A stretch of DNA of 21,889 nt from a virus, in IMG/VR virus record IMGVR_UViG_3300030116_004479, positions 1 to 21,889 of that record; one strand, 5' to 3'. The position numbers and the translations under genes are program-made. The notes below the pieces were generated by a model that was given only the letters and a program-made list of their open reading frames with translations, had not been told where the DNA came from and searched no databases. Shown here in pieces: positions 3,034 to 20,076 of the stretch (position 1 is its first letter; each line of letters begins with the position of its first letter).

Positions 3034-3807
3034 ATGGCTGATGCAGTCACAACTCAAGTTCTCCAAGATGGAGAGCGACAGTACATTGCAAAGTTTACTA
3101 ATCTCTCGGATGGTACTGGAGAAAGTAAAGTTACCAAGATAGACGTTTCTACACTTGCTCCAAACTCGTTCGGTTTAGCTTGTAATGGTCTAAAAATTAC
3201 AAAGGTCGTATGTCAGACTTATGACATGGGTGTTGATCTTTTTTGGGTTGGTGATCCAAGTCCAGCTGGTGATGCTCTCATAGCTAGTTTCCCACAAGGT
3301 GAACTGTATGATATCCCATACGTCCCGTATCTACCCTATAATGCAAGTGGCATTAAAGGTGTCGATGCGGCTGGTGATATCGCTTTGAGCACTAGAAATG
3401 CTTCAAACGGTGATACTTATACAATAATAATTCATGCAATTAAGGAGTATCACAGACCAGCGGACGTTAGTGGTCTAGTGTCTTACAATGTAAGAGTCGC
3501 AGCGGGTACAAACTCCTATGGAACTGGTAATGTTTTTTATGTTGATGATGCGGTAAGCCCACACTTCACATTTGAAGCAAACAGAAGTTATCGCTTTTTA
3601 CAAAGTGATAATACCAACAACAACCACCCATTGCGATTTAGCACAACGCCAAACGGAACACACGCAGGTGGTGCTGAATACACCGATGGGGTGACTATAA
3701 ATAATACAGCGGGTACAGCAGGTGCATTCACTCAAATAGATACCACCGACTCAACACCTGAATTGTACTATTATTGTTCAAACCATTCAGGTATGGGAGA
3801 TGCATGA
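3034..3807 (+). CDS. Virion structural protein with C-terminal cupredoxin-like domain
   Basis: This is a 257-residue two-part protein. Residues 1-140 resemble a conserved phage structural family (opening MADAVTTQVLQDGERQYIAK, then FTNLSDGTGESKVTKIDVS and a strand-rich body ending YTIIIHAIKEY). In relatives I remember, the protein stops about here. Residues 150-257 form an added beta domain of the plastocyanin/cupredoxin type: YNVRVAAG...YRF...NNHPLRFS...LYYYCSNHSGMG. The four expected copper ligands are visible as His198, Cys248, His251 and Met254 in an H...CxxHxxM pattern. No signal peptide is seen, so the protein is probably a virion component and not secreted. The start follows an ideal Shine-Dalgarno (AGGGAGGTGA, 3021-3030). 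The stop overlaps the next ATG as ATGA. Copper binding is inferred. The domain could instead be a structural relic used for surface binding. Confidence 0.8.
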   Translation: MADAVTTQVLQDGERQYIAKFTNLSDGTGESKVTKIDVSTLAPNSFGLACNGLKITKVVCQTYDMGVDLFWVGDPSPAGDALIASFPQGELYDIPYVPYLPYNASGIKGVDAAGDIALSTRNASNGDTYTIIIHAIKEYHRPADVSGLVSYNVRVAAGTNSYGTGNVFYVDDAVSPHFTFEANRSYRFLQSDNTNNNHPLRFSTTPNGTHAGGAEYTDGVTINNTAGTAGAFTQIDTTDSTPELYYYCSNHSGMGDA

Positions 3808-4361
3808 TGAAATCGAGCTATCCCTTCCGAGACGGTTGGCATTTTGATTCTTCGTTTGGTTTCACGAAATCAAGTTCTCGTGGAATGAAAAAAGGTGGAT
3901 CAACATCTGACAAAAACTGGATTCAGGGGGCTGTAAAAAAGCCGGGTGCGTTGACTTCTTACGTTAAAAGCGAAGGGGTCAAAATGAAAGATGGAAAAAT
4001 TCCTAAGGGCGTAATTAACAAATTAGCCGAAGGGAAGCCAGCTAAAAAAGGTGCTGGTAAACCATCTGCAACCACTCAGAAAAGAGCCAACCTAGCCAAG
4101 ACTTTTTCAAAAATGAATAAAGCTGATGGCGGTAGAGTCAACCGTAATATTCGTGATGAGGAAGCTCGTGTCATTGGTGTTCAGGACGATGCCGCTGATG
4201 AAATGCGTAGAGTTAGAGCACGAAGACCCAAAGATGCTCAGGAAAGACGCGACAAGCGTCAACAACTGAAAAGAGTTGCATCTAGGGAAAGAAATGCTCG
4301 TGACGAAATGCGTAGACTTCGGGGCGAAGCTGAATATGATATTAAACGGAGAAAACGATGA
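3804..4361 (+). CDS. Highly basic protein with WIQGAVKKPGAL motif, probable DNA-binding virion protein
   Basis: This encodes 185 residues from the ATG at 3804, which overlaps the previous stop as ATGA and has GGGAGA just upstream. An in-frame TTG at 3774 would give a longer form but lacks a ribosome site and lies deep in the upstream gene. A central segment (about 37-105) carries KNWIQGAVKKPGALTSYVK followed by KGVINKLAEGKP and QKRANLAKTFSKM. This is a basic helical motif (W-I-x-x-A-I-K-K-P-G-A-L ... RA-LA-T) that recurs in many phage proteins of unknown role. The C-terminal 70 residues are dense in Arg, Asp and Glu and likely form a long charged helix or coiled coil ending KRRKR. Nucleic-acid binding or DNA condensation in the head is inferred from charge and context. 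Confidence 0.75.
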   Translation: MMKSSYPFRDGWHFDSSFGFTKSSSRGMKKGGSTSDKNWIQGAVKKPGALTSYVKSEGVKMKDGKIPKGVINKLAEGKPAKKGAGKPSATTQKRANLAKTFSKMNKADGGRVNRNIRDEEARVIGVQDDAADEMRRVRARRPKDAQERRDKRQQLKRVASRERNARDEMRRLRGEAEYDIKRRKR

Positions 4362-4429
4362 AATCTAAAGGTTATGCCAAAGGCGGCAAAAGAATGATGA
4401 AGTCCAAAGGCTATGCCAAGGGCGGTAAG
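4358..4429 (+). repeat. 33-base direct repeat encoding MKSKGYAKGGK
   Basis: The 33-base unit at 4358-4390 recurs at 4397-4429, separated by 6 bases. Most differences between the copies are at third codon positions, so the peptide is preserved exactly while the DNA has drifted. This implies selection on the amino-acid repeat. Confidence 0.85.
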
Positions 4430-4702
4430 AAACAAGGCTACAACGCAAGGCTTGACGAATCTCTCGGCATGAGAAGAGGCAAAGAGTCTTCCAAATCCCA
4501 AAGCATGAAGTCTCGTAGAGATGAAAGCAAGGGTATGGAAAAAGCTATGGGCCGTAGAGCTTATCAGTCTGTCGGAACGATGGATATGAAACGTGGTGGT
4601 TCTATGAAAACCAAAGGCATGATGAAAGGCGGTTCCATGAAGTCAAAAGGTGGTTTCAAGGCAATGCCCGGTGATGCCCAATTTAAAAGAAAGTCTTGGT
4701 AA
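4358..4702 (+). CDS. Small Lys/Gly/Met-rich protamine-like protein
   Basis: This is a 114-residue, strongly basic, low-complexity protein. It starts at an ATGA overlap with the previous gene and has GGAG upstream. The N-terminus contains two copies of MKSKGYAKGGK, and the C-terminal half repeats MKxKG, MMKGG and SMKSKGG units before ending QFKRKSW. The Lys/Arg content and lack of hydrophobic core suggest a disordered nucleic-acid-binding polypeptide. KGYAKGG-type small proteins are, in my experience, common in marine phages and their function is not known. Together with the preceding gene it forms a pair of basic proteins between the capsid and tail genes. A role in packing DNA or delivering it with the genome is plausible but unproven. 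Confidence 0.75.
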   Translation: MKSKGYAKGGKRMMKSKGYAKGGKKQGYNARLDESLGMRRGKESSKSQSMKSRRDESKGMEKAMGRRAYQSVGTMDMKRGGSMKTKGMMKGGSMKSKGGFKAMPGDAQFKRKSW

Positions 4703-8321: not shown

Positions 8322-8984
8322 ATGCCACAAACTGGTTTTACACCTATTCAGCTATATCGAAGTTCGACATCTTCGAATACACCAAGTGCTAGTGACTTAG
8401 TAGACGGTGAATTAGCTATCAACACTGCCGATGAGAAACTGTTTTTCAAAAACTCGTCAGGGGTAGTCAAAGAAATTGCATCCTCTGGTGGTAGCACTGG
8501 CGATGTTGCGGGGCCAGCATCAGCAACGGACGGTGCCATTGTAGCTTTTGATGGAACTACCGGAAAACTTGTAAAAAGCGCACCACTTACTTCAGGTAAC
8601 GTAGTAATCGGAAATGGCACGGGTGCTCCCACCTTTGTTGCTCCGGGAACAGTTGGTAATGTTTTAAAGAATGTAGGAGGTAATTGGACATCCGCGGCGG
8701 GTGGCATAGACGCTCCAACAATTGTGAGTGGTAACACAAATGCAACGTCTGGACAGTTTCTCGTAGCTAGTGCGGGATCTATCACTATAACCTTACCAGC
8801 TGGTCCATCAGCAGGCGATTTTGTCATTGTTAAAGACGGTACAGGTGCAGCAGCGACTACAACTTTCACCGTAGCAAGAAATGGGAGTAATATCGCAAGT
8901 TCTGCAAGTGATTTAATTTTTGACAAAAACTTTGCCGAAATCACGATGACATATATCGACGCAACCATAGGATGGAGCGTATAA
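8322..8984 (+). CDS. Short tail-fibre-like protein (220 aa)
   Basis: The N-terminal module (TPIQLYRSSTSSNTPSASDL, then DGELAINTADEKLFFKNSSG, residues 7-46) is a widespread phage fibre entry domain. Residues 60-125 contain fibre-shaft repeats (DVAGPASATDGAIVAFDGTT, GNGTGAPTFVAPGTVGNVLK). The C-terminal domain (about 130-220) is a beta sandwich with TITLPAGPSAGDFVIVKDGT and FDKNFAEITMTYIDATIGWSV, also seen at the ends of marine phage fibre proteins. The ribosome site TAGGAG precedes the ATG. The whole protein is a complete small fibre: an attachment module, a short shaft and a tip. It is followed after one base by the first propeller gene, so it may form part of the same adhesive assembly. Confidence 0.75.
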   Translation: MPQTGFTPIQLYRSSTSSNTPSASDLVDGELAINTADEKLFFKNSSGVVKEIASSGGSTGDVAGPASATDGAIVAFDGTTGKLVKSAPLTSGNVVIGNGTGAPTFVAPGTVGNVLKNVGGNWTSAAGGIDAPTIVSGNTNATSGQFLVASAGSITITLPAGPSAGDFVIVKDGTGAAATTTFTVARNGSNIASSASDLIFDKNFAEITMTYIDATIGWSV

Positions 8985-8985
8985 T

Positions 8986-10482
8986 ATGAGCAATCTGTCA
9001 GAGCTACTGCCCTCTGGCGGTGGGCAAAATAATGTAGAATTTGTGGCTCAAGGTACGTTAACCAATGGGCAAGCGGTAAGGTTACGAACTGACGGTAAGG
9101 TGGAAGCAATATCGGTGCAACCCGCGGGTATTTCAAGCAACATAAACGTTGATGCAGATCAACCACGATATAACCAATGTATCTATGTAAGCAACGTAAA
9201 TCGCGTTGCCATAATTTTTCAAAATAACACCACGGGCTATCCAGAGGCAGTAATAGGAGAGGTTAGCGGATCATCAATTACTTTCGGAACTCCTGTCCAA
9301 ATTACAACGGTTGTTTCGTATATGCCAATGAGAGCAACATACGATGCCAGTGCAGATAGGCTCGTTGCTTTTTTTGGTGATGGTGGAAGTGCCGGTTATC
9401 GTGGGTTTGTCGGAACTATAAATGCGGCAACAAATAGTTCGTCGTGGGGATCTGAACAGCAAAGAAGTTTGGGAATACTGTGTAAAGCCAGAGCTTGTAT
9501 TTATATGCCAGACGCTCTACACACGCTTTTCATTTTTTGGCAAAATTCAGGTAATGGATATCTAAGGGCCGCAAGTGCTAAGGTAAATAGTAATAATACA
9601 ATTACTTGGGTTAGTCAGACTAACATACAAACTAGCAATGGTCCGGGGTATAATGACTATGGGTGCGATGTAACGTATGATTCAAATCAGCAAGTAGCCA
9701 TAGCGGGATACAATTTTGGGTACTCAACCAGTGTAGCTGCAATAACTATTGGTATGGATACATCTGGCAACATAGCTATAGGAACACAGAGAAGCCTCTA
9801 TAGCGCTGGTTATTTCGATTGTGTAGCCATTGACTATGACAGCAAAACCCAAAAATGCGGATTAGTAGCAGACGCTGCGGGTAATGGTTATATGATTGGG
9901 GTTTATGCTGACAGTTCAACCACTCTAGCCCAAGGTAGTAGTGGTCCTTACAGCTTGGGTGGTTTATTTGGTGGTGAGCCAGAGGGATCAATAAAATCAA
10001 ACGGTAACAATCAATTTATTTACGCTTATACTTACAACAGTAGTGGTGTTATCAAACCTGCTTATTGGTTAATGTACATAGATAGTAACAATGATTTGTA
10101 TAATAGCTCTTCAAGCATCGATATTGCCTCGGCATCAAGTAATGGGGATTTTGATATTGCCTACGATACAACTACACAAAAATTTATCATTAATTTTTAT
10201 TACAATGGTACGAGTGATAAAAACCAAGCCTATCTTTATAACTATCCAATTTCCAACAATGGCGATGTAATAGGTATAACATCACAGGCTATTTCATCTG
10301 GTGCCAGCGGTAACGTAAGTTTGCTTGGCGGTATTAACGAATCACAGAGTGGAATGACGCCCGGTGATACTATGTATGTTCAGGGCGATGGCTCTATAAC
10401 TAATTCAAGCAGTGGAACCTATACACCTGTGTTGATTGGCACGGCAGTATCAGCTACTACTTTAAACATTAAGGATCTGTAA
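8986..10482 (+). CDS. Propeller-type tail adhesin 1, single 7-blade array
   Basis: This 498-residue protein is the first of three tandem paralogues. It opens with the shared leader MSNLSELLPSGGG, then a small strand domain (VEFVAQGTLTNGQAVRLRTDGKV). Residues 60-420 hold about seven repeats of roughly 50 residues. Each is built around an aromatic-Asp/Ser start (for example RATYDASADRLVAFF, CDVTYDSNQQVAIAGY, DIAYDTTTQKFIINF) followed by a G-V-G or strand turn, as in a seven-bladed beta-propeller. A C-terminal cassette follows (DVIGITSQAISSGASGNVSL, then MYVQGDGSI and IGTAVSATTLNI). No catalytic motif is evident. A receptor- or glycan-binding role is inferred from propeller architecture and location in the fibre cassette. 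The stop overlaps the next gene as TAATG. Confidence 0.75.
   Translation: MSNLSELLPSGGGQNNVEFVAQGTLTNGQAVRLRTDGKVEAISVQPAGISSNINVDADQPRYNQCIYVSNVNRVAIIFQNNTTGYPEAVIGEVSGSSITFGTPVQITTVVSYMPMRATYDASADRLVAFFGDGGSAGYRGFVGTINAATNSSSWGSEQQRSLGILCKARACIYMPDALHTLFIFWQNSGNGYLRAASAKVNSNNTITWVSQTNIQTSNGPGYNDYGCDVTYDSNQQVAIAGYNFGYSTSVAAITIGMDTSGNIAIGTQRSLYSAGYFDCVAIDYDSKTQKCGLVADAAGNGYMIGVYADSSTTLAQGSSGPYSLGGLFGGEPEGSIKSNGNNQFIYAYTYNSSGVIKPAYWLMYIDSNNDLYNSSSSIDIASASSNGDFDIAYDTTTQKFIINFYYNGTSDKNQAYLYNYPISNNGDVIGITSQAISSGASGNVSLLGGINESQSGMTPGDTMYVQGDGSITNSSSGTYTPVLIGTAVSATTLNIKDL
9163..10245 (+). repeat. Seven diverged ~50-residue propeller repeats (adhesin 1)
   Basis: Repeat starts recur at residues 67, 118, 171, 229, 283, 336 and 391 of the protein. 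Only the strand pattern and a few aromatic, Asp and Gly positions are conserved, so the duplication is old. Confidence 0.6.
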
Positions 10483-12758
10483 TGAGTAATTTATCTGATC
10501 TACTTCCTGCAGGTGCCGGTGGTAAAAATGTAAGTTTTACGGCTAACGGTACAATTTCGCAAGGTGATGCAGTTATTATTGAAAGCAATGGTCAGGTCGC
10601 TCCTGTTTCATCACAATCAGCGGGTATAAATGCAGGTCAAGCTGTCAGTGGTGGACAGACTATTGAGTATATCGATGGGTGTTACGATGAAGCGTCTGGT
10701 TTTTTCACTCTGATTTATAGTAACAGCAACGCAGGTAGTGTAGCTCAAGTAAGGGGAGTGCAACCTAACGGCTCTTTAGGTAATGCGGCATCGTTTTCAA
10801 TTGGCAACCCTACAGATTTAATCACTTCTGGCACACCAACATCCGTGGGATCGGGTGTAACGGTGGTTGAAATTCCTTCGATTGACAGAGTGGTTGGTTT
10901 AGCTAGTCTTTCTTCCCCTCATTACATTAAAGGAAATGTTGTAACTCCGGGATTTAACAATACCGTACAAAGTAGCGTTACACTTGTTGGACAACAGGCA
11001 CGAGGGGTAGCCGCGTGCTATGTTCCAAGTGTTGATAGGTTATTTGTAGTAGGTTATGACACTTCCAATGCAAGATTAAATTACAATCTGTGTTCTGTTT
11101 CAACATCAACAATTACACCCTTAGTAAACAGTTCAACAGGTGGTAACATTGCCGTACCTTTTGGCGTAACTCCTTATTATCCCGTTGTAACGTATGATTC
11201 AACTAATGATAAAATTATCTTATTATGTACGCAAAGCAATAATGCGATCATCAATGTTGGTACGCCATCTGCTTCTAACGTTAGTTGGGCAGGATGGACT
11301 ACGGCAGTAACTGGGGGATTCACTTCAAGTTATGGATATCATGACATTGGTTACATTCCCGACTCAGATGTCATATTTATTATATTCGCAGATTCTTCGA
11401 ATGGATATTATCCTACATATCAAGCGGGAAGACTAAGCGGAACAACTTATGCACATTTTGGAAGCGCGAAAAATGTTTTGTTTACGAACAATAGCTATCC
11501 TAACATAAGTTGCGATTATAACTCTGGAATAAAAAAACTCGGAATACAGTGGGCATCGTCTACGTCTGTTAGGCAACAAACTGTAACTTTCAACGGTAAT
11601 ACGGCTGTGTTAAGTGCAGTTACGGGCAACCAACAAGGACTTAACAGAAATAATGCTAGAGTGGCTTCTATGTCCACAGTCAAACAAATGGTGCAAATGT
11701 GTCAAAATCAATCTAGTTCACCCGGAGGAAACCAAGGTGAGGCTGTAATTTACACACCAGAGGCCTCTACGGTTTCTAGTTTTATTGGAATTGCAGATGA
11801 AAACATAGCAAATGCTTCTACGGGGAACGTAACAATTAAGGGTGGTATAGCAACAACTCAACTAGCTACCCCACTTTTCGAGTATATGAATAAAAGTTTC
11901 AGCACTGCTAGTCAGGATACAATACCTGAAGAAGTGAGGTTTAAACCTGATGGAACAAAATTTTATATTTTAGGTGGCAGTAGCGATCAGGTGTATCAGT
12001 ACAGTATGACTACACCTTGGGATGTTTCCACTGCATCTTATGACAATGTAAGTTTGAATGTACAAACACAGGATACAAATCCGCAGGGATTGGCAATTAA
12101 TGCAGACGGAACATCATTTTATATGTGTGGTCAAACTGATGCTATTTATCAATATGATTTAACCTCAGCCTACGACTTGAGTACAGCTTCGTATGCGAAT
12201 AAAAGTTTTAGTTTCAGTAGTCAAATAGGTAGTGGTGCACCGTGGGGAATACACTTCAATAGCACCGGAACACAATTATATATGATTAGTAGTTCTGCCA
12301 GTGGTCCTATTTACCAATACAGTTTGTCCTCAGCCTTTGATGTTTCTACTGCTTCCTATGCAAATAAAACTGTTAACGCGGGCCTAAACAATACAACTTC
12401 ATTAACAATGACTCCCAATGGAGTTACCTTATACGTTTTGGATTATGCAACTGGTATTTATAAATATACACTAAGTGTGGCAGATGATATTTCTACAGCT
12501 ACCTATGATAACGTTTTCTATAATACAACAGCACAAGACCTCTATCCATTCGGGGTTGCTGTAAAAACTGATAACACTCAACTGTATACAACAGGCACAG
12601 AAAACGACAGTGTTTATCAGTACAGCCTTTCGACTAATTTGACCCCAAACAGTGTGTATTACGTCGCAGACGATGGAACAATCTCAACGACTTCGACAGG
12701 GTTGAGAATAGGTAAGGCATTGAGTACATCCAGTATCAACTTGGAATTTGAAACATGA
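10482..12758 (+). CDS. Propeller-type tail adhesin 2, 7-blade plus 5-repeat array
   Basis: This 758-residue paralogue starts MSNLSDLLPAGAGGKNVSF, with the same strand domain as its neighbours. Residues 60-430 hold about seven diverged ~50-residue repeats (GCYDEASGFFTLIY, TYDSTNDKIILLC, GYIPDSDVIFIIF among them). The linker FIGIADENIANASTGNVTIK (434-453) follows. Residues 467-717 then carry five much clearer repeats of a different type, with the core PDGTKFYILGG...VYQYSMTTPWDVSTASYDN. This second array is a YncE/WD-like propeller repeat seen often in marine phage and metagenome proteins. The C-terminus (NSVYYVADDGTIS, then IGKALSTSSINL) matches the paralogues. Binding to a surface receptor is the likely role. 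No active site is visible. Confidence 0.75.
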   Translation: MSNLSDLLPAGAGGKNVSFTANGTISQGDAVIIESNGQVAPVSSQSAGINAGQAVSGGQTIEYIDGCYDEASGFFTLIYSNSNAGSVAQVRGVQPNGSLGNAASFSIGNPTDLITSGTPTSVGSGVTVVEIPSIDRVVGLASLSSPHYIKGNVVTPGFNNTVQSSVTLVGQQARGVAACYVPSVDRLFVVGYDTSNARLNYNLCSVSTSTITPLVNSSTGGNIAVPFGVTPYYPVVTYDSTNDKIILLCTQSNNAIINVGTPSASNVSWAGWTTAVTGGFTSSYGYHDIGYIPDSDVIFIIFADSSNGYYPTYQAGRLSGTTYAHFGSAKNVLFTNNSYPNISCDYNSGIKKLGIQWASSTSVRQQTVTFNGNTAVLSAVTGNQQGLNRNNARVASMSTVKQMVQMCQNQSSSPGGNQGEAVIYTPEASTVSSFIGIADENIANASTGNVTIKGGIATTQLATPLFEYMNKSFSTASQDTIPEEVRFKPDGTKFYILGGSSDQVYQYSMTTPWDVSTASYDNVSLNVQTQDTNPQGLAINADGTSFYMCGQTDAIYQYDLTSAYDLSTASYANKSFSFSSQIGSGAPWGIHFNSTGTQLYMISSSASGPIYQYSLSSAFDVSTASYANKTVNAGLNNTTSLTMTPNGVTLYVLDYATGIYKYTLSVADDISTATYDNVFYNTTAQDLYPFGVAVKTDNTQLYTTGTENDSVYQYSLSTNLTPNSVYYVADDGTISTTSTGLRIGKALSTSSINLEFET
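11880..12632 (+). repeat. Five ~50-residue VSTASY-type propeller repeats (adhesin 2)
   Basis: Units start at about residues 467, 520, 571, 626 and 675. Most contain a Gly/Asn-Gly-Thr turn, a YxYxL strand and the closing D(V/L/I)STA(S/T)Y. They are much better conserved among themselves than the first array of the same protein, which suggests more recent expansion or exchange. Confidence 0.85.
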
Positions 12759-15340
12759 CAAATTTATCTGATTTACTCCCTGCGGGTGGCAGTGCAAAAG
12801 AAGCTACAGCCATAGCCTCTGGTAATATTGCTACTGGTCAAACAGTAGCACTCTTATCAAACGGACAGATAGAGGTGGTGAGTGAAACACAAATAAGTCA
12901 AGGGTTTGGATCAACGGTTGTTTACGAGTCAGGTGGCAACTACCCACAACAAGTAGCTGTAACTTACGATACCAACGTAGATAGAGTTTTTGTTTGTTAT
13001 TACTTTAGTGGGAGTTATCCCCGTGCACAAATTGGAACAGTTAGTGGAAGCACTATAACTTTCGGAACTGCTACCCAAGTGATGACTCAGACAAGTGGCG
13101 CAATAGATTGCTGTTTTGATGAGAGTCAGAATAAAGTGATTGTTGTCAGTTACGACAACGGAACGACAAAAGGTGTCAGCGCAATTGGTACTATTACCAG
13201 TGGCACTAATAATGTTTCATTTAGTTCAACGTCACAAATTTATAATCAACAAACCGATTACATCAGATGTGCATACGATCCGGTGCAACAACAAGTTCTT
13301 GCGGTTTTCAGAGATGCTAATAGTTATGGGCGAGGATACGTTGGCACAACATCAGGATCAACAACTACTTGGGGTGGTACACAAACTTATTCTACGGGGA
13401 ACCCGATTGACAATGATCTCGCATACAGTCCAGACGATCAGTGTTTTTGTGTTATTGCAAGAAATATAAGTTATTCCGATGTTAGGGCATACATTCTTAC
13501 AATCAGTGCTAGTCAAATTGTTTATCAAACACAAAACGTAATTACATCAGGGGCAAGTTACTATAATTATTTAAAAATTCTTTACAATACGGCAGAAAAC
13601 AAATTTGTTGTAGCTTTCCACAATTCTCAAAACTCCGATGGTGAGGCTTATGTTGGCACAGTAATTTCCGCAAATCTTTCTATGAGTTTCAGTGGGGCAA
13701 ATCAATTTTCGGCTAATCAAGTTTCTCAAATCGGAATTGGATATGATCCAAGTGCCGATAAATTGCTCTTTGTTTGGCGTGATGATACCACTGGATATAG
13801 TTATTACAGTGTTGGTACGCAAAGTGGAAATGTAATTAACTTTACAACACAAACATTATTAGCTCCGACTGCTAATTACCGATTCCCTGCAATTGAATAT
13901 GACCCTGATGCACAACAATTAGTTCTCGCTTATCAAAACCACGCCAACGGAAATGGCGAAGCTAGAATGTTCCAAAATGCCAAAACGACAACTAATAATA
14001 CTGACTTCATTGGCATAGCGGCTGAGACAATCTCTAGCGGTAACAGTGGGAAATATAATCCACAAGGTGGGGTAGCTATCACCTCAGAGTCTAGTCCGGG
14101 TGAAGCGGGAACACCCACAGTATTTACAGGTGGAATCAGATCGGCTGATATGAAAGCTGTATTTGACAGTGGAAGCAATCAAGTTGTGTTCGGATTTCAA
14201 AATTTTGCTACAGGTCATGGAACATCTATCGTTGGAGCTATAAACTCATCAAATAACACTGTATCGTTTGGTGCTACAGGCACTTATCAATCACTTTCTT
14301 CGAGTTATAACAGTATTGCCTATGATGCATCAGCCGACAAAATAGTAGCTGTTACGTCTGATCCAACTTCTTCTAACTATTATGGAGTAGCCTATGTAGG
14401 CACTGTAACTGGCACAGGTATTTCATTTGCTAGTGGGGTAGAATACAGACAAACACAAATACAATCTCAAGACATTTCTTATGATTCTACAAGTCAAAAA
14501 GTAGTTGTTTGTTGGACTAGAGCAACTTACGGAGAATCGGCTGTAGGAACCATATCAGGCGGTGCAATTACTTTTGGATCTATGACGGAGTGGCAACAAC
14601 TAAGTGGAGCAATTAGTTATGTCAACACCACTTATGACTCAAACGCTGATAGGACAGTAGTCGCATATCAACGTTCAGGAACAGGGTTAGCTTGTGTGGT
14701 TGGACAAGTTTCCGGTACCTCTATCACATGGGGTAGTAGAGTTGATCCAATTGGTGCCATTGGCGTTGTTATGTCAGAGGGGGGAACAATTTGTTTTGAT
14801 AGCCAGAACAACAAGGTCATAATCCCCTATAAAGATAATTCGTCATCATACGGAACCGTGGTGGTCTGTACTGTAAGTGGTTCAACACTTAGTGGAGGAA
14901 CGCCTGTTCCATTCACGGACGTTGCTATAAATGGTCAATCTCTGCAATCTACATTCGACTCCAATCTCAACAAAGTAATTATCGCTTATTGTCACCAATC
15001 CGGAGACAACTATTTACGAGTTGTTACAGGCACGGTGTCTGGAACATCTATTACTTTCGATACTCCCGTTGCAATTACATCAACCGATATCAATCCATCT
15101 TCCGTAGCAATTGCCTTTGATTCAAATGTAAACAAAACAATGGTAGGCTACAATGACAACTCAGCGAGTGCAGCCTACGGTGCAGTATATCTAACAACGG
15201 GATCAGCAAAAGATCTCACGATTGATGCTACTTATTACGTGCAAGGAAATGGCGAGTTAACACAAACCGCTGGTGGTACTAATGTAGAAGTAGGAAAAGC
15301 TGTATCAACAACACAATTATTACTAAAAGGAGCACCATAA
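12755..15340 (+). CDS. Propeller-type tail adhesin 3, double 7-blade array
   Basis: At 861 residues this is the largest protein in the window. It overlaps the previous gene by ATGA. The leader MTNLSDLLPAGGSAK and strand domain match the other two adhesins. Repeat starts fall at residues 71, 121, 174, 225, 277, 330 and 382, and after the linker FIGIAAETISSGNSGKYN (418-435) again at 470, 523, 576, 627, 680, 733 and 788. The unit is YDsxadkvvvay...g.a.vGtvsGtsItfGs, with the best examples in the second half. The C-terminus (DATYYVQGNGELTQ, then VEVGKAVSTTQLLLKGAP) is shared. The layout implies two stacked seven-bladed propellers. A receptor-binding role is inferred. No enzymatic residues can be identified by eye. 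Confidence 0.75.
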   Translation: MTNLSDLLPAGGSAKEATAIASGNIATGQTVALLSNGQIEVVSETQISQGFGSTVVYESGGNYPQQVAVTYDTNVDRVFVCYYFSGSYPRAQIGTVSGSTITFGTATQVMTQTSGAIDCCFDESQNKVIVVSYDNGTTKGVSAIGTITSGTNNVSFSSTSQIYNQQTDYIRCAYDPVQQQVLAVFRDANSYGRGYVGTTSGSTTTWGGTQTYSTGNPIDNDLAYSPDDQCFCVIARNISYSDVRAYILTISASQIVYQTQNVITSGASYYNYLKILYNTAENKFVVAFHNSQNSDGEAYVGTVISANLSMSFSGANQFSANQVSQIGIGYDPSADKLLFVWRDDTTGYSYYSVGTQSGNVINFTTQTLLAPTANYRFPAIEYDPDAQQLVLAYQNHANGNGEARMFQNAKTTTNNTDFIGIAAETISSGNSGKYNPQGGVAITSESSPGEAGTPTVFTGGIRSADMKAVFDSGSNQVVFGFQNFATGHGTSIVGAINSSNNTVSFGATGTYQSLSSSYNSIAYDASADKIVAVTSDPTSSNYYGVAYVGTVTGTGISFASGVEYRQTQIQSQDISYDSTSQKVVVCWTRATYGESAVGTISGGAITFGSMTEWQQLSGAISYVNTTYDSNADRTVVAYQRSGTGLACVVGQVSGTSITWGSRVDPIGAIGVVMSEGGTICFDSQNNKVIIPYKDNSSSYGTVVVCTVSGSTLSGGTPVPFTDVAINGQSLQSTFDSNLNKVIIAYCHQSGDNYLRVVTGTVSGTSITFDTPVAITSTDINPSSVAIAFDSNVNKTMVGYNDNSASAAYGAVYLTTGSAKDLTIDATYYVQGNGELTQTAGGTNVEVGKAVSTTQLLLKGAP
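12932..15205 (+). repeat. Two arrays of seven ~50-52-residue propeller repeats (adhesin 3)
   Basis: Fourteen repeats split 7+7 by a non-repeat linker at 14006-14077. The recurring nucleotide core around GTxxGGxACATCxATTACTTTCGG encodes the (V)SGTSITFG strand and is most regular in the second array. Confidence 0.7.
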
Positions 15341-15711
15341 TGAAAACCATCGTAGAAAATTCTACAAAACTAAGTAAGTATCTGTACGAAGATGACAAAG
15401 AAATTTTGATGGAAGCAGGCCGTATTACGATTGGTCCTGTAGATAACCCTGAGTTATATGTCGGTTGCCATAGCATGAACGATTGCACGTTATATGAAAA
15501 TATTGAGGGTCCACCAGATACTTGGGCAGGCAATAAATATACGTTTGACGGCACGACTTGGACCGCCAATCCAGATTGGAGAGACCCAGTTGAGCTTCAG
15601 GCAGAGTTAGATGCAGAGAGAGAAGCTAGATTAGCTGAAATTGAAGCGGCTAATGCAGCATCGGAAGAGGCAGAAAGTTCTGAGGAAAGCTCGGAAGAGA
15701 GTTCAGAGTAA
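15340..15711 (+). CDS. Small protein at the end of the fibre cassette, acidic Ser/Glu tail
   Basis: This encodes 123 residues, coupled to adhesin 3 by TAATG and with a strong AAAAGGAG site. Residues 1-80 resemble small proteins next to fibre genes in marine T4-like and other phages: MKTIVENSTKLSKYLYEDDK, then NDCTLYENI and TWAGNKYTFDGTTWTANPDW. That last stretch resembles a tail-fibre-assembly or fibre-tip type domain. Residues 84-108 form a likely coiled coil (ELQAELDAEREARLAEIEAA). The last 15 residues are an acidic repeat of Ser-Ser-Glu-Glu units. By position it may be a chaperone or tip protein for the adhesins, as fibre-assembly genes often follow their fibre. This is inference. Confidence 0.75.
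   Translation: MKTIVENSTKLSKYLYEDDKEILMEAGRITIGPVDNPELYVGCHSMNDCTLYENIEGPPDTWAGNKYTFDGTTWTANPDWRDPVELQAELDAEREARLAEIEAANAASEEAESSEESSEESSE
15664..15708 (+). repeat. Acidic ESSEESSE codon repeat
   Basis: The last 15 codons encode a low-complexity Glu/Ser tract with the SSEE unit repeated. The DNA copies differ at synonymous sites (AGTTCTGAGG, AGCTCGGAAG, AGTTCAGAG), so the peptide composition is what has been kept. Confidence 0.8.
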
Positions 15712-15721
15712 GGACTAAGCC

Positions 15722-16354
15722 ATGAGCTATACAATGACATATGATAGCTTGTTAGTGGACATACGCAGGTATCTTGAGCGTGGGTTTACACAAGCTAGTG
15801 ATCAAATTGTTTTTGATCAATTGCCACGTTTAGTGACGTTAGCAGAGAGGCGTATAGCTCGTGAACTCAAAATCGAAGGTTTTATCCGAGCGATAACAAC
15901 GCCTCTGTCTATTGGTGTTAGCACCTATCTCAAGCCAGACAGATGGCGTGACACGATTTCTATGACGGTAGACGGGACGCCAATACAAACAAGATCATAT
16001 GAGTACCTTCGTAATTACTGGCCTAATGAAGCTCAAACAGCATCACCTCAATTCTATGCTGATTACGACTATGCTAATTGGTTGATTGCTCCAACACCAA
16101 ATGCAGCTAGTACATTAGAAATCCTTTACTATGAACAACCTGCACTGCTAGGTCCAAACTTGCAAAGTAATTGGCTGACGGACTACGCACCGGAGTTGGT
16201 GTTGTACGCTTCGTTACTTGAGGCAACCCCATTTTTGAAAAACGATGAGAGAGTACAGCTATGGCAAAGTCTATATGACCGATGTGCTCAAGCATTCAGC
16301 GGTCAAGACTTAGGAAGAATACTTGATCGTGCGGCACAAAGGAGTGAAGCATAA
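15722..16354 (+). CDS. Second connector-like protein (P22 gp4 / T7 gp11 tail-tubular A type)
   Basis: This encodes 210 residues, a normal length for the compact tail-tubular A/adaptor family. The N-terminal helical part (YDSLLVDIRRYLERG, then FDQLPRLVTLAERRIARELK) and the strand section (YLKPDRWRDTISMTV, IQTRSYEYLRNYWP) match. So do APTPNAASTLEILYYEQPAL and the closing helices (ELVLYASLLEATPFLKNDER, then LWQSLYDRCAQAF). It has no insert, in contrast to the protein at 4759-5769. It is preceded by AAGGA and overlaps the next gene as TAATG. It likely forms the ring between the portal/connector and the tail hub encoded two genes downstream. Assignment is by family pattern, without an alignment. 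Confidence 0.75.
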   Translation: MSYTMTYDSLLVDIRRYLERGFTQASDQIVFDQLPRLVTLAERRIARELKIEGFIRAITTPLSIGVSTYLKPDRWRDTISMTVDGTPIQTRSYEYLRNYWPNEAQTASPQFYADYDYANWLIAPTPNAASTLEILYYEQPALLGPNLQSNWLTDYAPELVLYASLLEATPFLKNDERVQLWQSLYDRCAQAFSGQDLGRILDRAAQRSEA

Positions 16355-19394: not shown

Positions 19395-19627
19395 TGGCGT
19401 TAAGTGTTACATTGCCAGTGGGTATTGGTCTTAAAGATTGGGCAAACTGTTTAATCACAGATTTTATTGCCTTTGGTGCATTTGACCCGTTAGACGATGA
19501 AACAAAGTGGCAAGATTGGGCTACGCAATTTTTGAATGCAACCAATTTGATTGAAGATTTCCCAGACCCGTATATGTATGACGATTGGAGAGAGTGGGCA
19601 GAAAGATTTGTCCAAACAACGCTATGA
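19394..19627 (+). CDS. Small conserved phage protein
   Basis: This is a 77-residue acidic and Trp-rich protein (5 Trp), coupled to the hub gene by TAATG and to the next gene by ATGA. The pattern LKDWANCLITDF ... WQDWATQFL ... FPDPYMYDDWREWAERFV is one I recognise as a conserved unknown downstream of the hub gene in marine and roseobacter-type podoviruses. No signal peptide or membrane helix is present. Repeated W-x-x-W-A patterns suggest a small helical packing protein. Its function is not known, though conserved gene order points to tail or ejection-apparatus assembly. Confidence 0.75.
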   Translation: MALSVTLPVGIGLKDWANCLITDFIAFGAFDPLDDETKWQDWATQFLNATNLIEDFPDPYMYDDWREWAERFVQTTL

Positions 19628-20076
19628 GATTTATTGGTTTTGAAAGAGAGATTTCTGCGGAAAAGTGGGCTAGACCGTTACTTGGTCTTAAAGATGAGCC
19701 TGAGTTTTTCCGTGCGATGTCGGCAGTTGATGACGAGGAAAAGTTTGTTTGCACTGCAATTTTCAACAACTTTACACCTAGAAACATAGATGTATCGTTT
19801 GCATCCCGTGGCGGTAACTGGGCATCTCCGAAAGAAACCTTACGGATGTTCAACGCTATTTTTACTTACATATTTAAGATACACGAAGCGTCACGGGCTA
19901 CAGCTTTGATTGGTCATAACAACGAAAAGTCTATACGGTTTGTCAAAAGGTTAGGATTTAAACACGAAGGTACAATGAGACAGGCCTACGACGATAACGA
20001 AGATTTAGAGGTATTTGGGTTTTTGCGGAATGAATATAATACGCACAGATGGTGTAATGTGAGGACTGCGCGATGA
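19624..20076 (+). CDS. GNAT-like N-acetyltransferase family protein
   Basis: This encodes 150 residues from the ATG at 19624, which overlaps the previous stop as ATGA. An in-frame TTG at 19585 would extend it by 13 residues but lies inside the upstream gene without a good ribosome site. The C-terminal half fits the GNAT fold: a helix (SPKETLRMFNAIFTYIFKIH), a strand (ATALIGHNN), then EKSIRFVKRLGFKHEGTMRQ and LEVFGFLRNEY, as in RimJ/RimL-type enzymes. The usual acetyl-CoA loop (R/Q-x-x-G-x-G/A) cannot be seen, so activity is doubtful or the loop has diverged. This family sits beside tail genes in many phages. Its substrate, and whether it modifies virion or host proteins, is unknown. Confidence 0.75.
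   Translation: MRFIGFEREISAEKWARPLLGLKDEPEFFRAMSAVDDEEKFVCTAIFNNFTPRNIDVSFASRGGNWASPKETLRMFNAIFTYIFKIHEASRATALIGHNNEKSIRFVKRLGFKHEGTMRQAYDDNEDLEVFGFLRNEYNTHRWCNVRTAR

Follow-up and report, generated by a model that had tools for sequence, protein, structure and literature searches.

Phage receptor-binding proteins are known to be modular, as in the host recognition modules of Alteromonas phage A5/V22, which combine a conserved attachment part with an exchanged recognition part and show horizontal transfer (PMC10579305). The locus described here, three consecutive propeller genes (genes 1 to 3) at positions 8986–15340 of the 21,889-bp marine phage record IMGVR_UViG_3300030116_004479 (the window, meaning the whole stretch of DNA analysed), is a variant of such systems: a cement-like frame is split by inserted beta-propellers, and these are exchanged among the three genes. 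It probably encodes a set of tail-borne adhesins, with the propellers as interchangeable heads on a frame common to all three. In contrast to the A5/V22-type modules, the heads lie inside the attachment domain and not after it, and they move among three paralogous genes of one locus.

Among cultured phages, the podovirus vB_LenP_ICBM2 of Lentibacter (Cobavirus, MF431616) encodes a protein, gp49, which like the window proteins has the split frame and a propeller of the 7-bladed kind, and a second protein, gp51, which is a 5-bladed propeller of the type found in window gene 2; both are annotated as hypothetical. ICBM2 differs in having only one framed gene, with a longer N-terminus of its own, and in carrying the 5-bladed propeller as a separate gene with no frame. 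The RCA roseophages CRP-9, CRP-13 and CRP-738 carry 5-bladed YQYSLS propellers with the same kind of repeat, encoded within or close to putative fibre regions, but these belong to large, multi-propeller proteins, and no cement-like frame was seen in the two that were translated (CRP-13 and CRP-738). The frame itself is related to the head decoration family PF09956 (Phage_cement_2, DUF2190), most of whose profile is matched once the inserts are removed; unlike that family, it is interrupted by propellers at up to three loops and does not lie beside capsid genes.

In alignments of 21 and of 25 homologues, nearly all invariant columns fall in three strips, namely the leader, a middle strip (FIGIA...GGI) and a C-terminal strip with the tail, which together are one domain of ~118 amino acids split by the inserted propellers. 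An earlier reading of the window, made from the sequence alone, gave the coordinates, lengths and overlapping start and stop codons of the three plus-strand genes exactly (the overlaps are 1 base between genes 1 and 2 and 4 bases between genes 2 and 3), and its common leader M(S/T)NLS(D/E)LLP(A/S)G and similar C-terminal tail are real, but it did not notice that both are halves of one propeller-interrupted domain. Against the PF09956 curated cut-off of 24 bits, the intact proteins gave weak, partial scores of 21.8 bits (gene 1) and 11.1 bits (gene 2) and no match for gene 3, and with the inserts removed the scores became 28.2, 27.3 and 20.3 bits respectively, so that the insert-free frames of genes 1 and 2 exceed the cut-off with most of the profile covered. 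This match suggests that the strips contact one another in the folded protein. Slot 1 is always filled, by 365–403 amino acids forming seven blades; slot 2 is empty (6–8 amino acids) or holds 263 amino acids (five blades) or 368–389 amino acids (seven blades); slot 3 is empty or, in a second lineage (L095, L097), holds a propeller of the 5-bladed type. The split frame is a natural case of a small domain tolerating large insertions at two or three loops. At L098:551–2326 slot 2 contains a 115-amino-acid cupredoxin-like piece in place of a propeller, and a stretch similar to this piece ends the window gene at 3034–3807.

The number of blades was assessed with a hidden Markov model (HMM) trained on modules of other phages, for which shuffled sequences gave full E-values of 0.03 or worse. 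The blade HMM found 14 units in gene 3 (E 2e-132), with one further weak unit in the frame, and 6–7 units in gene 1 (E 1.5e-22), and recovered only three of seven blades in gene 2 (E 5e-7), whose second propeller has five YQYxLS-type repeats. Seven blades are thus predicted for the first propellers of genes 1 and 2 partly from motif reading and equal length. AlphaFold modelled residues 470–715 of gene 2 as a propeller (predicted local distance difference test, pLDDT, about 95) and gene 3 as two propellers (mean pLDDT 85), the best Protein Data Bank (PDB) matches of the latter by Foldseek being tandem WD40-type propellers (E 1e-15). Closed arrays of four-stranded blades are therefore seen in the models of genes 2 and 3, and for gene 1 the fold is assigned by homology only. 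PDB sequence searches gave no convincing relative, and tblastn of gene 3 against annotated phages returned nothing. A match of the frame profile to Photorhabdus PLL lectins (E 1e-8) proved to be added up from seven weak stretches, not one of which is significant by itself, and was disregarded.

These results bear out the blade counts of 7, 7+5 and 7+7 given in the sequence-only reading, by repeat HMM, motifs and the two AlphaFold models, and the structure prediction it had proposed as a check, run on genes 2 and 3, returned propellers for both. The growing counts arise from second propellers inserted in loops of a fixed frame and not from stepwise gene duplication, and the variation in gene number and order that the reading proposed to look for was not seen in the window lineage, where every sufficiently complete locus carries exactly three frame genes in constant order. 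What stands of that reading is a paralogous set of propeller adhesin-like proteins, at a locus of the receptor-binding type, whose heads turn over strongly among close relatives. Across the lineage, gene 2 is most often 7, with 7+5 in the window and L016 and 7+7 in L027, and gene 3 is 7+7, with 7+5 in L031. The loci compared (L numbers) are mostly metagenome contigs. Outside the window lineage, the locus is also present in the second lineage (L095, L097), and L098 has two frame genes in view, the first of which, the gene with the cupredoxin-like piece, is a hybrid with the leader of gene 1 and the middle and tail of gene 2. A search of genome contigs yielded a single relative, with one frame gene (L110:8001–9530), in a phage-like part of a contig that bears the label of a Planctomycetaceae metagenome-assembled genome.

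Propellers of the same type, clustered at 40% identity, occur in different genes: type B in genes 1, 2 and 3, types C and E in 2 and 3, types F and I in 1 and 3, and types G and L in 1 and 2. The type G propeller of window gene 1, for example, recurs in gene 2 of L012 (about 51% identity). Gene identity has to change 2 times along the frame tree and 19 times along the propeller tree, against a mean of 24 after shuffling; labels were assigned from the tail, which is part of the frame, so that the frame-tree value is partly by construction, although gene order independently gives identical labels except for the L098 hybrid. Fifteen cross-gene propeller pairs exceed 60% identity, the best reaching 90%. 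Within a locus the most similar 7-bladed pair has only 56% identity, so that the heads of one phage are always unlike, and head combinations differ among complete loci. The locus thus shows the conserved anchor and exchanged variable heads of a modular receptor-binding system.

The exchanged segments end at the frame. In gene 1, identity between the window and L011 ends at 9110 (the N-terminal piece ends at 9117) and resumes at 10268 (the middle piece starts at 10267), and in gene 2 it ends at 11853 and resumes at 12640, which are the limits of the 5-bladed insert, where L011 has an 18-bp linker. In cross-gene swaps DNA similarity begins in the leader and extends to the middle piece or into it, for example over residues 20–428 at 90.8%. 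Transfer also occurs between diverged phages: L025 and L031 are 99.9% identical in gene 1 and 99.1% in gene 2 at the DNA level but 75% over the upstream 3 kb, with unlike propellers in gene 3, a pattern which on these identities is one of recent transfer and not of drift. Conversely, the window and L028 have adaptors of 100% and nozzles of 99.7% identity, with frames at 72–80% and the three first propellers at 25–30%, the background between unrelated propeller types. L009 and L011 share one IMG sample number yet carry different heads, so that head combinations appear to coexist.

Directly upstream of gene 1 lies g0, a fibre-like gene and a candidate dock for the frames. In each of the 17 contigs that span this position (the window and 16 others, including L095, L097, L098 and L110), its C-terminal domain immediately precedes the first frame gene, and the domain was found in none of about 14 relatives in which the region is covered and frame genes are lacking, most of these relatives having the N-terminal half; the relatives are not independent and no p-value is claimed for these counts. 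Relatives without frame genes carry other fibre-like arrays at this site. In phage SU10 the fibres attach to the adaptor and nozzle (PMC9509320), and in ICBM2 the genes for gp49 and gp51 have annotated tail assembly chaperones around them, the region being characterized by the authors of that genome as variable and as coding for tail fibres (PMC6775973). The link to the g0 C-terminal domain, the fibre-like arrays, the SU10 attachment and the setting of ICBM2 gp49 together make a tail location more likely than one on the capsid. Arrays of several adhesins may be common at this site; tandem fibre-like sets of other kinds (GGFI or glycine-rich types) occupy it in the distant relatives L044, L053 and L076, and in L045 (7871–10004) and L052 sulfotransferase-like and kinase-like genes, as judged by motif reading, are inserted there.

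The most serious alternative to a tail location is that the frame decorates the capsid and that the propellers, presented in the manner of head fibres, adhere to cells, mucus or particles. The insert-free frame of genes 1 and 2 passes the Phage_cement_2 threshold, and both this family and PHROG 122 are annotated as phage cement or head decoration, but we regard a capsid location as unlikely given that the genes are flanked by fibre-type genes on one side and by the adaptor and nozzle on the other and are not next to the capsid genes, that fibre-like proteins occupy the site in relatives, that the g0 C-terminal domain accompanies the frame genes and that the framed propeller of a cultured relative, ICBM2, is in a tail-fibre region. 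Phage tailspikes with catalytic propellers exist, and the propellers could alternatively be enzymes of the sialidase, lactonase or glycan lyase type digesting the host surface. The 5-bladed propeller of the window has a weak SGL match, and its relatives in L095 and ICBM2 (gp51) match SGL or lactonase families over the cut-off, but invariant residues are confined almost entirely to the frame, with none of them in a possible catalytic pattern of the propellers, and no enzyme family is matched above cut-off by the window proteins, which makes a catalytic role very improbable. Least probable of all is that the mosaic reflects ancient paralogy with loss and drift, or mis-assembly, instead of head exchange: the loci are mostly metagenome contigs and paralogues can mis-join at conserved stretches, but cross-gene pairs of up to 90% identity coexist with gene-specific frames, the 99% identical block adjoins a flank of 75% identity, and the pattern is repeated in many contigs and the locus common to the second lineage.

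We therefore favour a tail-borne adhesin set. Each protein consists of a small Phage_cement_2-related beta domain whose loops hold propellers, and the frame pieces retain their gene 1, 2 or 3 identity, presumably since each occupies a distinct position in the virion. The frames probably sit on the fibre encoded by g0, leaving the propellers as exposed, fast-changing heads that would bind the cell surface and may be under selection for diversity. Co-infecting phages would recombine through crossovers in the conserved frame pieces, moving whole propellers between phages and among the three genes, with the outcome that every phage bears a set of unlike heads. Such an arrangement would probably allow the virus to maintain several heads for cell binding and to vary them.

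Several points weigh against this proposal. We infer, for the propeller family, both presence in the virion and receptor binding; the Pfam kinship of the frame is to capsid cement proteins, compatible with a head location, and the gene 3 frame falls under the Pfam cut-off; the 123-amino-acid protein encoded next to the trio lacks the PF16778 half, which is the chaperone domain in its relative; assembly errors in metagenome contigs could account for a few joins; and the frames of different genes within one genome have only about 45–80% DNA identity, which leaves the route of between-gene crossover unexplained. With identity this low, between-gene crossovers are probably rare short-homology events in co-infecting phages followed by selection. 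In six related contigs (33–58 kb, some possibly incomplete) there was no RVT_1 match indicative of a diversity-generating retroelement (DGR) and no match to the invertase and integrase families PF00239 and PF00589, with positive controls in both cases; the window record is itself a fragment. A YqaJ-like exonuclease match, below cut-off, was present in three related contigs. A more speculative proposal, which we hold only tentatively and think rather doubtful, is that the three frames form a dedicated exchange system, the frame pieces serving as crossover zones at which in-frame propeller cassettes would be swapped among three virion positions and through phage populations, giving new multi-head combinations with neither a DGR nor an invertase.

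The locus illustrates a way in which a phage could bear several recognition heads at the same time, each renewable by exchange, whilst its assembly contacts stay constant, and it gives a context to propeller proteins called hypothetical, including those of cultured roseophages. How head combination relates to host range among marine phages becomes directly testable. The features of the locus are collected in Table 1.

Table 1. Coordinates of the propeller genes, their frame and propeller segments and adjacent genes in the window.
Feature	Position	Strand	Remarks
g0, 220-aa fibre-like protein; candidate dock	8322..8984	+	N-terminal tail-fibre domain (PHROG tail-fibre hits)
g0 C-terminal domain, found only with propeller genes	8718..8981	+	
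Gene 1, 498 aa: frame, one 7-bladed propeller (slot 1)	8986..10482	+	Pfam Phage_cement_2 match at residues 426-491
Gene 1 frame N piece	8986..9117	+	
Gene 1 propeller P1, type G, 383 aa, 7 blades	9118..10266	+	Bounds: identity break vs L011
Gene 1 frame middle and C pieces; slot 2 empty, 6-aa linker	10267..10479	+	
Gene 2, 758 aa: frame, 7-bladed (slot 1) and 5-bladed (slot 2) propellers	10482..12758	+	
Gene 2 propeller P1, type J, 389 aa	10614..11780	+	97% identical in L011
Gene 2 frame middle piece	11781..11849	+	
Gene 2 propeller P2, type D, 263 aa, 5 blades; insert absent in L011	11850..12638	+	
Gene 2 frame C piece and tail	12639..12755	+	
Gene 3, 861 aa: frame, 7-bladed propellers in slots 1 and 2	12755..15340	+	
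Gene 3 propeller P1, type H, 373 aa	12887..14005	+	
Gene 3 frame middle piece	14006..14074	+	
Gene 3 propeller P2, type A, 380 aa, slower evolving	14075..15214	+	58-92% identical among nearest relatives
Gene 3 frame C piece and tail	15215..15337	+	
123-aa protein accompanying the trio	15340..15711	+	Like N-terminal half of Lentibacter phage ICBM2 gp48
SU10-type adaptor protein	15722..16354	+	PF24175 E 1.4e-25 (context)

The first propeller of gene 2 is of an unrelated type in the other relatives compared (24–28% identity). The gene for the 123-amino-acid protein is listed alongside the frame genes and was not found in relatives without them. Its product has 32% identity (E 1e-13) to ICBM2 gp48, a tail assembly chaperone; assignment of this function was rejected as unproven, as the similarity covers only the N-terminal half of gp48, outside PF16778.

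Capsid, fibre-type, adaptor, nozzle-type and tape-measure-like genes are all present in the record. The closest isolates by capsid and nozzle protein are the Caulobacter phages GB2A, RW, RLK and KcrB, the capsid protein being 79% identical to those of GB2A and RW, and from these isolates we would guess the host to be an alphaproteobacterium. No frame gene was present in the region of GB2A that was read. Between the nozzle-type and tape-measure-like genes of the window lies a GNAT-type acetyltransferase gene (19585–20076) that is kept in relatives, and a lysine/glycine-rich repeat protein (window 4358–4702; L010:1574–1951; L013:2291–2701) varies in length between 114, 125 and 136 amino acids.

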